Assembly (NCBI RefSeq): GCF_000091045.1
Contig: NC_006683.1
Coordinates: forward strand, 110,441 to 174,440
DNA from: Cryptococcus deneoformans JEC21
Taxonomy: Eukaryota > Basidiomycota > Tremellomycetes > Tremellales > Cryptococcaceae
Direction of reading: 5' to 3'
DNA length: 64,000 bases
The notes beneath the pieces are model-generated. The model was not told where the DNA came from. It saw only the letters and a program-made list of their open reading frames with translations, and ran no database searches. The position numbers and the translations under genes were made by a program. Positions 60,687-63,785 of this stretch are shown here, one piece after another (positions within the stretch are counted from its first letter, which is position 1; every line of letters begins with the position of its first letter).

Positions 60687-63600
60687 ATGTCGGAGGCGGC
60701 GAATTCATCGACCCCCGACAGGCATAACACTGTATTTGTAGTCACCCTGGTCTTTGCTGTGATCGCCACAGTGTTCGTCGGCTTGAGAATGTTGTCAAAA
60801 GGATGGATCGTAAAACGATTCACGACGGACGATTGGTTCACTGTTGCCGCCTGGGTATGTACCTGATACGGCAAGGTACAAAGAGCTCATGCGATCGCCA
60901 GGTCTTCATGTTGGGAGTGACAGTTTCTATCATGATAGGTGCGCGGGACGGATTAGGAATGGTGGATTCAGGTAAGTAAGGAGCCGCTCCAGAACAGTAA
61001 CATCACTAATGTTGAATTCAGATATTCCTCCTGACATGGTCGACCCACAAGAGAGCGCCATATACGCTTTTACCATCTTTTACAACCTGGCAATCATGAC
61101 TACCAAAACGGCAATCTTGATTTTGTACGTTCGATTGGCAGCCGCACATGCCTTTCTTCGACGAGCTTCAATCGCCACCATGGCTGTGGTGAATCTCGCA
61201 GGAGCCATGCTGGTGCTACTCAACATATTTCGATGCCGGCCCATACGCGCTGCATTCACCAGTATTGACGGCTCCTGTATCAACCTTGTTTCGATATTCT
61301 TGTCAACATCTCCTATCAATATACTCACCGACTTCGCTATCCTTCTGCTTCCTTTACCTATCTTGACCCGCCTTCGAATGGAATTTCGCCAAAAGGTCGT
61401 CCTTGTCGCCACTTTCATTGTAGGGGGGTTCGTCACAATCGTAGACGTTGTGCGCGTTGTGTACCTGCAGAATGCTCTCAAGGCAGAATACGCCGAGAAC
61501 ACCAACGATCCGTCGAACACTGTCTCCCAACAAAACACCAGAAATTATGGTTATCATGTCAGTTATTCGTTGATGTGGTCTGGTATAGAGGTATCCGTGG
61601 GGTTGATGTGCTGCTGTATATTGGTGCTAAAACCTCTGGTCATGCGAGTTCTCCCAGCTATCTTGAAAGATCCCAACAAATCAGCACTCACAGGAACTCT
61701 CCTTTCTTTCGACTTTTCACAACCTGAAGGCTCTCAAAGCCAATCTCTTCCCTCAACAAGGGAATTTGCCGGGACATTGGGTATGACGGTTGGCACTAGT
61801 GGTACTGACCCAACGGAAGTTTCAGGCGCTGCTGAAACGGAGACAAGGAATGGATTGAGGCATCAGCAAAATGGAGGAACTGGAAGGAGTGATGAAGATG
61901 AGACGTTCGACTTGTTTGATATGCTGGCTAGTGATCCTCAACACTCGGGGGCTCAAGTGACCCATCCTCCTCATCGAAAGTCTGAAAGGCAGTCACATTC
62001 GACGGCCAGCAAGATCAAGAACATGTTCGGTCATCGACATTCTGCTTCGACAGATACAACCCAAGAACCTACTCAAGTCTTCTTTGATTTTGTCCGTATG
62101 GGCGGGAAGAAACCACTGACAGAGCTCACTGCCAAAGAGTCTCGTGGCCCTGTGATCTTTGGTACGTTTACCGGTCATGTTTAGGTATCGCTGAAAGGCT
62201 GACGATGGATCGCAGGAAGCATCTTGTTTTTTATCTGGGGCTTTTCCTATGGCCTAATGGGAACGCTCAATGTCCGAGTACAAGAGATCCATGGCTTTTC
62301 CCCTTCTCAGACACTCGCTCTTAGCTGCTCTTACTGGATCGCCTATTTCTTTGCTCCCCCTGTCATCGGTTATTGGGTCATCACTCGACAAGGCTTCAAA
62401 GCTACATTTATAACCGGTCTTGCCTTTTACTCAATTGGAGCTATGGCGTTCTGGCCATCAGCTGTCCTTGCCAGCTATGCTGGGTTCTTTATCAGCAATT
62501 TCCTTGTCGCTTTGGGTCTAGCTACTATCGAAGTCGCTGCGAATCCTTTCATAGCCCTGGCTGGACCTGGACAGTACTCTGAAGCGAGGCTCAATTTCTC
62601 ACAATCGATACAGGCTGTTGGTGGATTGATCTCACCTATCATAGCCTCCAAAGTCCTTTTCGACGAGCTAAGTGGTAGCGAAAGCCTCTTGTTCAAAGTA
62701 CAATGGTGCTACCTTGCAGTGGCGATATTTGTCTTGTTCACGGCGGTCGTATTTTTCTACGTGCCTTTAAGCGAAGCTGGGGATGAGGATCTGGAGAAAA
62801 TCGCAAAAGAGAGAATGTCGAGAGCAGAGTTGCCCTCAAATCCAAGATATTGTGGAATACCGATGCGCATCTGGGCATTGGTGCTAGGGATAATGACGTT
62901 GTGGTTTTATACCGGAGCACAAGAAAACCTCAACTACTACTGGTCAACGCTGTCCGTCATCATAAAACCCTCTTTCGACAGTCTTTGGGGTCAAACTTTG
63001 GGACGTGTTGTCTTTGTCATGGGACGCTTTGTGGCTGCGGTGTTATGCTATATCGGAATCCCACCTCGATACATTTTGGCTTGTTTTACTATGGGCGCAT
63101 TCATCACCACAATTACTACCATCGTCCTACCCACTGGCAATGGTACCTACGCAAGTTTGATCCTTATCGAGTTCTTTGAATCACCAATCTTTCCTACCGT
63201 ATTTGCTATCACTATCCGTAATCAAGGACGTCACACGAAATCAACTTCCACTATGTTGATGATGACCGCATCTGGGAGTGCGGTTTGGCCGGCTGTGGCA
63301 TACGGTGTCAACCTTCGTTATGATGGCCGTTCTCGCCTCCTTTTGGTCCCTGCGGTCGTCTTATTTGGTTTAAACTCAGCATATTCGGTAATACTAAGCT
63401 CTACCAAGACGTGCAGGAGATGGATCGATCCTCGTTGGAGCAAAGGAAAGCCATTATTGGAGAAGGGGACGAGGGAGAAGGATGTGGGCTATGGCGTGGG
63501 TTATCCAGAGGGTGATATTGGAGATCCCGGAATATCACCCAGACAGAGGACTGAGGAGCTGCAATTGGGAAGTGAAGGAGGCTTTTTGAGTGCTCCTATG

Positions 63601-63693
63601 ACGATGGGATTGGGTTTGGATCTCTCGGAACAAGAAGAGCAACATCCATCGGGTCCAGAAGATTTTACAGAGAAAAGGACCGGTGCAGGTTGA
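60687..63693 (+). CDS. Fusion protein: fungal 7-TM rhodopsin/Pth11-like domain plus FucP-type MFS transporter
   Basis: Exons 60687-60854, 60902-60971, 61022-62161 and 62216-63693 give 951 residues. Residues about 1-280 form seven membrane segments with fungal rhodopsin-domain (SAT4/Pth11-like) marks: MLSKGWIVKRFTTDDWFTVA after TM1, TTKTAILILYVRL in TM3, FRCRPIRAAF, CINLVSIFLSTSPINILTDF and LPLPILTRLRMEFRQK. A hydrophilic linker (about 280-440) precedes PLTELTAKESRGPVIFGSIL and an apparently complete 12-TM MFS of the fucose/glucose/galactose:H+ symporter (FHS) type: FFIWGFSYGLMGTLN, ATIEVAANPFIALAGPGQYS, ARLNFSQSIQAVGGLISPII and IEFFESPIFPTVFA. The MFS start lies within the large exon 3, so the joint does not depend on a predicted splice. 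Location is presumably the plasma membrane. A sugar ligand and transceptor role are inferred. Confidence 0.85.
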
Positions 63694-63701
63694 AGGGCGG
63701 T

Positions 63702-63785
63702 TGCTTGTCAGAATACTCAAGACTGTAGTACTATAATCATTAATGCTTGTCAGAATACTCAAGACTGTAGTATTATAATCATTAA
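63702..63785 (+). repeat. 42-bp tandem duplication downstream of the fusion gene
   Basis: Two adjacent 42-bp copies (63702-63743 and 63744-63785) start TGCTTGTCAGAATACTCAAG and differ by a single C/T. They begin 9 bp after the stop codon of the fusion gene, so they are probably in its 3' UTR. Confidence 0.95.

Follow-up and report, generated by a model that had tools for sequence, protein, structure and literature searches.

A putative receptor-transporter hybrid in Cryptococcus deneoformans joining a Pth11-like seven-helix domain to an FHS-family transporter

Does a single gene of Cryptococcus deneoformans JEC21 join a fungal receptor-like domain to a sugar transporter, and might the two halves act together? 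The question arises from a stretch of 64,000 nucleotides of this genome (the window), in which an initial annotation made from the letters alone had described one frame leading from a seven-segment SAT4/Pth11-like domain through a linker into a 12-TM FucP-type transporter, and had suggested a nutrient transceptor. The spliced translation of window positions 60687-63693 (+) gives a 951-residue protein in frame from four exons of one gene. The described layout was borne out, as both Pfam domains are present along with 19 hydrophobic segments, seven ahead of the linker and 12 behind it (mean hydropathy, 18 aligned proteins of A1). The locus contains the following features.

60687..63693, + strand: entire coding region of the fusion, start to stop (translation and domain matches)
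60687..60854, + strand: exon 1, short N-terminus and start of the PF20684 domain (translation)
60855..60901, + strand: intron 1, GTATGT..CAG, 47 nt, without counterpart in the relative P0003 (sequence)
60902..60971, + strand: exon 2 (translation)
60972..61021, + strand: intron 2, GTAAGT..CAG, 50 nt, without counterpart in P0003 (sequence)
61022..62161, + strand: exon 3 (1140 nt), remainder of the PF20684 7TM domain, cytosolic linker (about residues 297-432), and FHS N-terminal cytosolic segment FFDFVRMGGKKPLTELTAKES
62162..62215, + strand: intron 3, GTACGT..CAG, 54 nt, at the receptor/transporter border (sequence)
62216..63693, + strand: exon 4, 12-TM FHS/MFS transporter and C-terminal tail, carrying G475, E565 and E696
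63702..63785, + strand: 42-nt tandem duplication directly 3' of the stop codon

In Pfam, PF20684 (Fung_rhodopsin) matched residues 33-287 with an E value of 3.8e-54 (184.2 bits against a gathering cut-off of 27), covering positions 1-236 of the 237 in the profile, and PF07690 (MFS_1) matched residues 462-815 above its cut-off (E 2e-16); 136 residues separate the two domain matches, and the scan of the 951-residue protein up to E 1 returned no domain besides these two. The NCBIfam matches were to FucP/GluP-type FHS transporters under their curated cut-offs, among them TIGR00885 (fucP) at residues 459-820 (E 3.1e-32, 112.3 bits against an equivalog cut-off of 280.4), and a PDB search with the full-length protein, up to E 1, matched only the E. 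coli FucP structures 3o7q and 3o7p. The domain search that the initial annotation had proposed thus recovered both halves, the TIGR00885 match lying below the equivalog cut-off.

Whether the joint is genuine had to be weighed against an artefact in which the gene model or assembly merged two adjacent genes. The intron at the border might be a mis-joined gap, and one relative, P0179, is annotated as receptor-only. Against this, LTELTAKESRGPV and the receptor tail share the 1140-nt third exon, so that the receptor exon itself contains the cytosolic N-terminal segment of the transporter, as the initial annotation had observed, and P0179 reads FFDFV..EAWWPIMFG before running off-family in the way that an unspliced intron would. 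A further argument comes from P0003, a 558-residue sequence from a 1856-bp contig that is 92% identical to the window protein, passes the sites of all three introns without insertion, and departs from the family sequence after about residue 550. Because retention of intron 3 in the window leads to an in-frame stop, ending the protein after 466 residues, and because the exon 1 frame terminates inside intron 1, we infer that P0003 likely derives from spliced RNA. In addition, a single frame contains over 180 receptor and over 360 FHS residues in each of 17 ORFs taken from non-NCBI assemblies. Merged gene models are ruled out as an explanation by P0003, by these single-frame ORFs and by the conserved joint; with the 40 named NCBI proteins described below, the same evidence upholds the earlier claim that the joint does not come from merging two models. 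An artefact is accordingly very improbable, and we regard a real covalent fusion of both domains as virtually certain.

Retention of intron 3 would yield a receptor-only product, and the ORFs of several relatives depart from the family sequence here too; P0064 (100% identical), P0065 and P0180, all near the window sequence, break off at this intron. A transporter-only product could arise from a Met439 start or an internal promoter.

The architecture was followed through the window protein and 242 retrieved sequences, 243 in all, scored with HMMs built from A1, of which 152 matched both HMMs, 71 the FHS model only and 20 the receptor model only. The joint was crossed within one protein or ORF, from receptor to its end and into FHS from its start, by 149 of the 243, where either domain may be incomplete at its far end: 61 of these carry at least 100 receptor and at least 300 FHS residues, 46 have fewer than 100 FHS residues, and 36 fewer than 100 receptor residues. 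Many of the one-domain rows resemble pieces of the fusion cut at exon ends, as the ORFs in the source databases were called on contigs that contain introns, and we rejected one-domain homologues as proof of separate genes on these grounds. Clear stand-alone cases are the receptors P0240-P0242 and the FHS protein P0173, some FHS-only rows being unassigned; the Saitozyma models P0212, P0236 and P0238 are either short or broken. Among the retrieved sequences we saw no member in which the halves were clearly re-split, with not every FHS-only row settled.

Close relatives keep the fusion. We counted 40 named NCBI proteins with both domains, comprising 31 from Tremellomycetes and nine from Pezizomycotina. 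The Tremellomycete fusions occur in Cryptococcus amylolentus, C. depauperatus, two Cryptococcus strains, many Kwoniella, Saitozyma, Naematelia, a Tremellales strain (Uapishka), Vanrija, Cryptotrichosporon and Cutaneotrichosporon, and those of Ascomycota in Curvularia, Rutstroemia, Botryotinia, Botrytis, Triangularia, Cercophora, Ophiocordyceps, Purpureocillium and Aspergillus heteromorphus; the window protein is 56-58% identical to the named Cryptococcus fusions. This listing scored the 7998 candidates sharing most words and gave 63 matches, many of them nameless; as it took near-full-length candidates only, the frequency of separate halves is not to be read from it. No Agaricomycete, Ustilaginomycotina or Saccharomycotina protein was among the named matches. 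The initial annotation had considered that relatives might consistently carry the halves as separate genes, and this is contradicted by a fusion kept in two phyla. Judged by its sequence distribution, the fusion is old and conserved. Saitozyma podzolica has five named fused paralogues together with shorter or broken models (P0012, P0014, P0015, P0025, P0032, P0212, P0236), and P0015, P0025 and P0236, whose contigs are given as equally long, suggest a local expansion.

The two halves also appear to share much of their history. For 59 fused proteins picked from the 243 by domain coverage, one quick tree was inferred from the receptor half and another from the FHS half, and both return broadly the same groups (Tremellomycetes, Sordariomycete-type, Helotiales-type and Curvularia/Aspergillus-type), with SH-aLRT of 100 in each tree for the Tremellomycete group (34 rows) and of 97 and 100 for the Sordariomycete-type group (seven rows). 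Conflicts concern single rows, among them P0041, P0052 and P0053, and some Tremellomycete branches, which shift between trees. Patristic distances of receptor and FHS halves were correlated (Spearman 0.84), as they were, with P0016 and P0030 excluded, within the Tremellomycetes (0.61, 32 rows) and within the ascomycete-side rows (0.88, 25 rows); each value was reached by 0 of 999 permutations. For the receptor half, four fused Ascomycota are 39-44% identical to the window protein versus 25-33% for three stand-alone receptors, and for the FHS half the stand-alone P0173 reaches 41% (243 bits) versus 34-41% (245-298 bits) for the same four Ascomycota. Because P0173 is about as close to the window protein as are the fused ascomycete halves, it is unproved that the fused transporter arose once, and a single fusion event is the simpler reading of these sequences, short of proof. 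Any root placed on these trees is tentative, with three very-long-branch stand-alone receptors and one clear stand-alone FHS protein as references, and one ancient fusion with losses and an inter-phylum transfer are both compatible with them.

What kind of transporter has been joined? The 12-TM MFS domain, with FucP as its nearest relative, belongs to the FHS family (TC 2.A.1.7). In the accessible text of PMC3824880 and PMC4882079, proton-dependent transport by FucP is believed to require Asp46, and Glu135 is possibly involved in substrate recognition. A gapless pairing with E. coli FucP aligns G475 with D46, E565 with E135, Q589 with Q159, Q592 with N162, and G472 with N43, so that the window protein resembles FucP in its TIGR00885 region and at the E135 and Q159 sites, but differs in falling below the equivalog cut-off, in having Gly for D46, Gly for N43 and Gln for N162, and in carrying a TM7 Glu696 and a receptor domain in front. 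One of the two residues that mark FucP proper is thus kept (E135) and the other (D46) replaced by Gly. With a score short of the equivalog cut-off and without one of the key FucP residues, the transporter half is of the FHS family and not FucP proper; of the FucP-type label given earlier, the family assignment stood and the narrower identity did not.

Conservation at these sites is uneven. Across 218 aligned rows, which are related and not independent, the D46 site was scored in 162 (56 gaps) as G in 71, D in 58, N in 25, S in four, V in two, and A and Y in one each, the Gly call of P0015 being spurious as this model is without the first FHS helix. Glu occupies the E135 site in 174 of 175 scored rows, Gln the Q159 site in 170 of 175, and Glu the TM7 E696 site in 163 of 173. 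Among the 30 named Tremellomycete proteins with the first FHS helix intact (the window protein included; P0015 and P0032 excluded from 32), the D46 site has Gly in 25, Val in two, Ser in two, Asn in one and Asp in none. Asn is found in the named Rutstroemia, Botryotinia, Botrytis and Sordariomycetes, and Asp in Curvularia and Aspergillus and also in P0067 and P0086, nameless rows near Tremellomycete sequences. TIGR00885 matches in the host genome comprise the fusion and one other multi-exon gene, on contig C6 (L015, about 322576-324100, -), which on our reading has a short N-terminus of its own and which lacks PF20684, making it a stand-alone FHS control; this gene (GLLDVLNKHF) and the stand-alone P0173 retain Asp at the D46 site and have Val at the E696 site, where FucP has Thr. 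These patterns suggest that FHS function is partly kept and that proton coupling by the FucP route has probably been lost in Tremellomycetes. Loss of Asp46 is ruled out as a general reason for the fusion, as many fused Ascomycota keep Asp and coupling loss is therefore no condition of fusion, and Glu696 is likewise ruled out as compensation for it, since both residues are present in 57 rows.

The receptor half is predicted to be an N-outside 7TM domain from its seven hydrophobic segments and loop charges, with predicted inner loops 1-3 counting 4/3/4 K+R and 2/0/1 D+E, and outer loops 1-3 counting 1/3/3 and 6/1/4. It resembles Pth11-like class XIV GPCRs in its above-threshold PF20684 match, its seven segments and this charge pattern, and differs from them in being joined to a transporter, in its occurrence in Tremellomycetes, and in having no CFEM domain in the Pfam scan of the window protein; CFEM is optional in class XIV and present in 4.1%, according to the accessible part of PMC12842992. 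In a six-frame search of the 19.05-Mb, 14-contig host genome the fusion was the only PF20684 match at E <= 0.001, and three G-alpha loci were above cut-off. As far as their accessible text goes, PMC1088943 reports Cryptococcus neoformans to be without PTH11-related sequence, and PMC12842992, the largest of the surveys, describes Pth11-like GPCRs as exclusive to Pezizomycotina among 1357 species. The filter in the latter demanded 6-7 helices for this class and first BLAST hits with >75% coverage of both sequences, and a fusion with 19 segments, outside the 6-7 TM range for a whole protein, would therefore drop out. The Tremellomycete fusions correct the view that Pth11-like receptors occur in Pezizomycotina alone.

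Between the halves, linker length varies from 57 to 352 residues (median 120, 149 rows). In both phyla the joint for the most part follows (F/Y)F(D/G)FVxM...K.L..L...E(S/A), and it is preceded, further upstream, by an acidic-hydrophobic motif with the form DETFDLFDMLASDP in the window protein, MDFFQMLASDP in Kwoniella and MMDFLTTPDM in many Ascomycota. The motif pattern occurs in 129 of 149 linkers versus a mean of 12.7 and a maximum of 21 in 200 shuffles; as the pattern was composed after viewing the sequences, which are related, this result speaks for conservation and is not a probability.

Clues to a ligand come from the genome neighbourhood. Downstream of the fusion, just past the end of the window, and convergent with it, lies a multi-exon gene (C14, about 175.2-177.5 kb; L017, 927-3152, -) whose first exon matched Bac_rhamnosid_N at 19.4 bits (cut-off 25; 17 bits on a repeat scan), tied with Glyco_hydro_2_N at 19.5 bits (cut-off 28), and whose last exon matched Bac_rhamnosid_C at 14.8 bits (cut-off 22.1, E 0.026). 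Three other exons had no Pfam match, and the gene was not among the matches of a genome search with Bac_rhamnosid6H (PF17389). One exon, however, shares 45% identity (E 5.9e-27) with a gene on contig C2 that passes the Bac_rhamnosid6H cut-off. These sub-threshold Pfam matches and the one in-genome homologue hint at a rhamnosidase-like neighbour. On contig C2, at about 1609693-1611531, a rhamnosidase-type domain lies in an unusually long open frame of 1947 residues. In the accessible parts of PMC5161314 and PMC10774165, respectively, A. niger RhtA is an FHS L-rhamnose transporter whose gene rhtA adjoins the GH78 gene rhaB, and N. crassa FRT-1 is its fucose-rhamnose orthologue. The window fusion likewise adjoins a rhamnosidase-like gene, a likeness to RhtA at the level of published description. 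Because of this neighbour, the RhtA-GH78 pairing and FRT-1, a 6-deoxyhexose is our candidate ligand, offered by analogy and as a guess. The upstream neighbour is a MYST-type histone acetyltransferase gene (Tudor-knot, MOZ_SAS) with no evident link to the fusion.

The transceptors described so far signal from one transporter fold. The window protein resembles the yeast nutrient transceptors Gap1 and Pho84 in being, putatively, a transporter that also signals, and differs from them in its separate, built-in 7TM receptor-like domain; the general idea of a signaling transporter is set out in the accessible text of PMC3824880. A closer parallel in architecture is LYCHOS/GPR155, a cholesterol sensor that regulates mTORC1 and bears a transporter-like domain and a GPCR-like 7TM on one chain (PMC11574030, accessible part). 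There, however, a PIN-like 10 TM transporter comes first, followed by a class-B-like 7TM and a DEP domain, and the protein is lysosomal and found from insects to vertebrates; the Pfam scan of the window protein returned no PIN-like transporter, class-B-like 7TM or DEP domain. By description and Pfam content the two are set apart as unrelated families, and the likeness would be an analogous one, in working only. A literature search whose scope lay outside most subscription papers and preprints found no description of a receptor-FHS fusion, and the accessible text of PMC13116585, PMC12842992, PMC13308352, PMC1088943, PMC5372324, PMC3998047, PMC11384713, PMC11943073 and PMC12941744 does not describe one; in the parts available of PMC5372324, PMC3998047 and PMC13116585, their matches are named as separate genes.

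We propose that the gene encodes a single 19-helix membrane protein in which an N-outside Pth11-like 7TM domain would lead through a cytosolic linker into a C-terminal FHS transporter. The FHS domain may bind a 6-deoxyhexose from outside the cell, with L-rhamnose or L-fucose as the likeliest candidates, and, because the FucP Asp46 site is Gly, may serve as a slow or uncoupled carrier and thus as the sugar-sensing half. Its switching between inward and outward states would pass through the linker, with its acidic-hydrophobic motif and FFDFV joint, to the 7TM half, which would report it to the cell, plausibly by a G-alpha protein. Such a transceptor reading agrees with the missing proton-coupling residue, with the conserved linker motif and with the rhamnosidase-like neighbour, and among several candidate options it is the best-supported by sequence. 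We give even chances to a covalent receptor-transporter hybrid with this putative sugar-sensing mechanism being the best explanation; that the halves function together as a coupled unit seems rather probable, and that sugar sensing is the main role of such a unit is a more tentative proposal, a little short of an even bet.

Two other readings take the fusion as real and part with the transceptor over what it does. The receptor and the sugar carrier might be independent units on one chain, jointly made, delivered and degraded without allosteric coupling. A linker as long and variable as this one does not suggest rigid mechanical coupling, and each domain keeps its own signature residues, but the conservation across phyla of the joint (FFDFV..KxLxxL..E(S/A)) and of the acidic linker motif, together with the lack of any clearly re-split member among the retrieved sequences (some FHS-only rows being unsettled), counts against it, and we consider this reading unlikely. 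Rather less likely still is that the 7TM domain is a module by which a sugar transporter traffics, folds or dimerises, and not a signaling receptor. No G-protein-coupling feature was recognised by sequence, and the accessible text of PMC13308352 raises the possibility that class IV fungal 7TM proteins, formerly counted as GPCRs, are transporters (Stm1). Drift would be expected of a domain that was merely a handle, though, whereas the receptor half has invariant residues in TM3, TM5, TM6 and TM7, and in seven of nine fused relatives it is closer to the window protein than is the transporter half (74% versus 62% in C. amylolentus), the order being reversed in Vanrija and Aspergillus heteromorphus.

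Taken with the transceptor reading, these findings tentatively point, at somewhat less than even odds, to a previously undescribed and ancient fungal hybrid class in which, in Tremellomycetes, an uncoupled sugar carrier would be the putative ligand sensor of a Pth11-like 7TM domain. If so, basidiomycete yeasts would own a Pth11-type receptor, missed because surveys kept only 7TM proteins, and fungi would possess an unrelated counterpart of LYCHOS. The orphan Pth11-like class would gain a member whose ligand is guessable from the fused transporter. The fusion would also provide a second and independent example of covalent linkage between a 7TM receptor and a transporter, one in which the coupling of transport and signaling would be testable in a tractable yeast.
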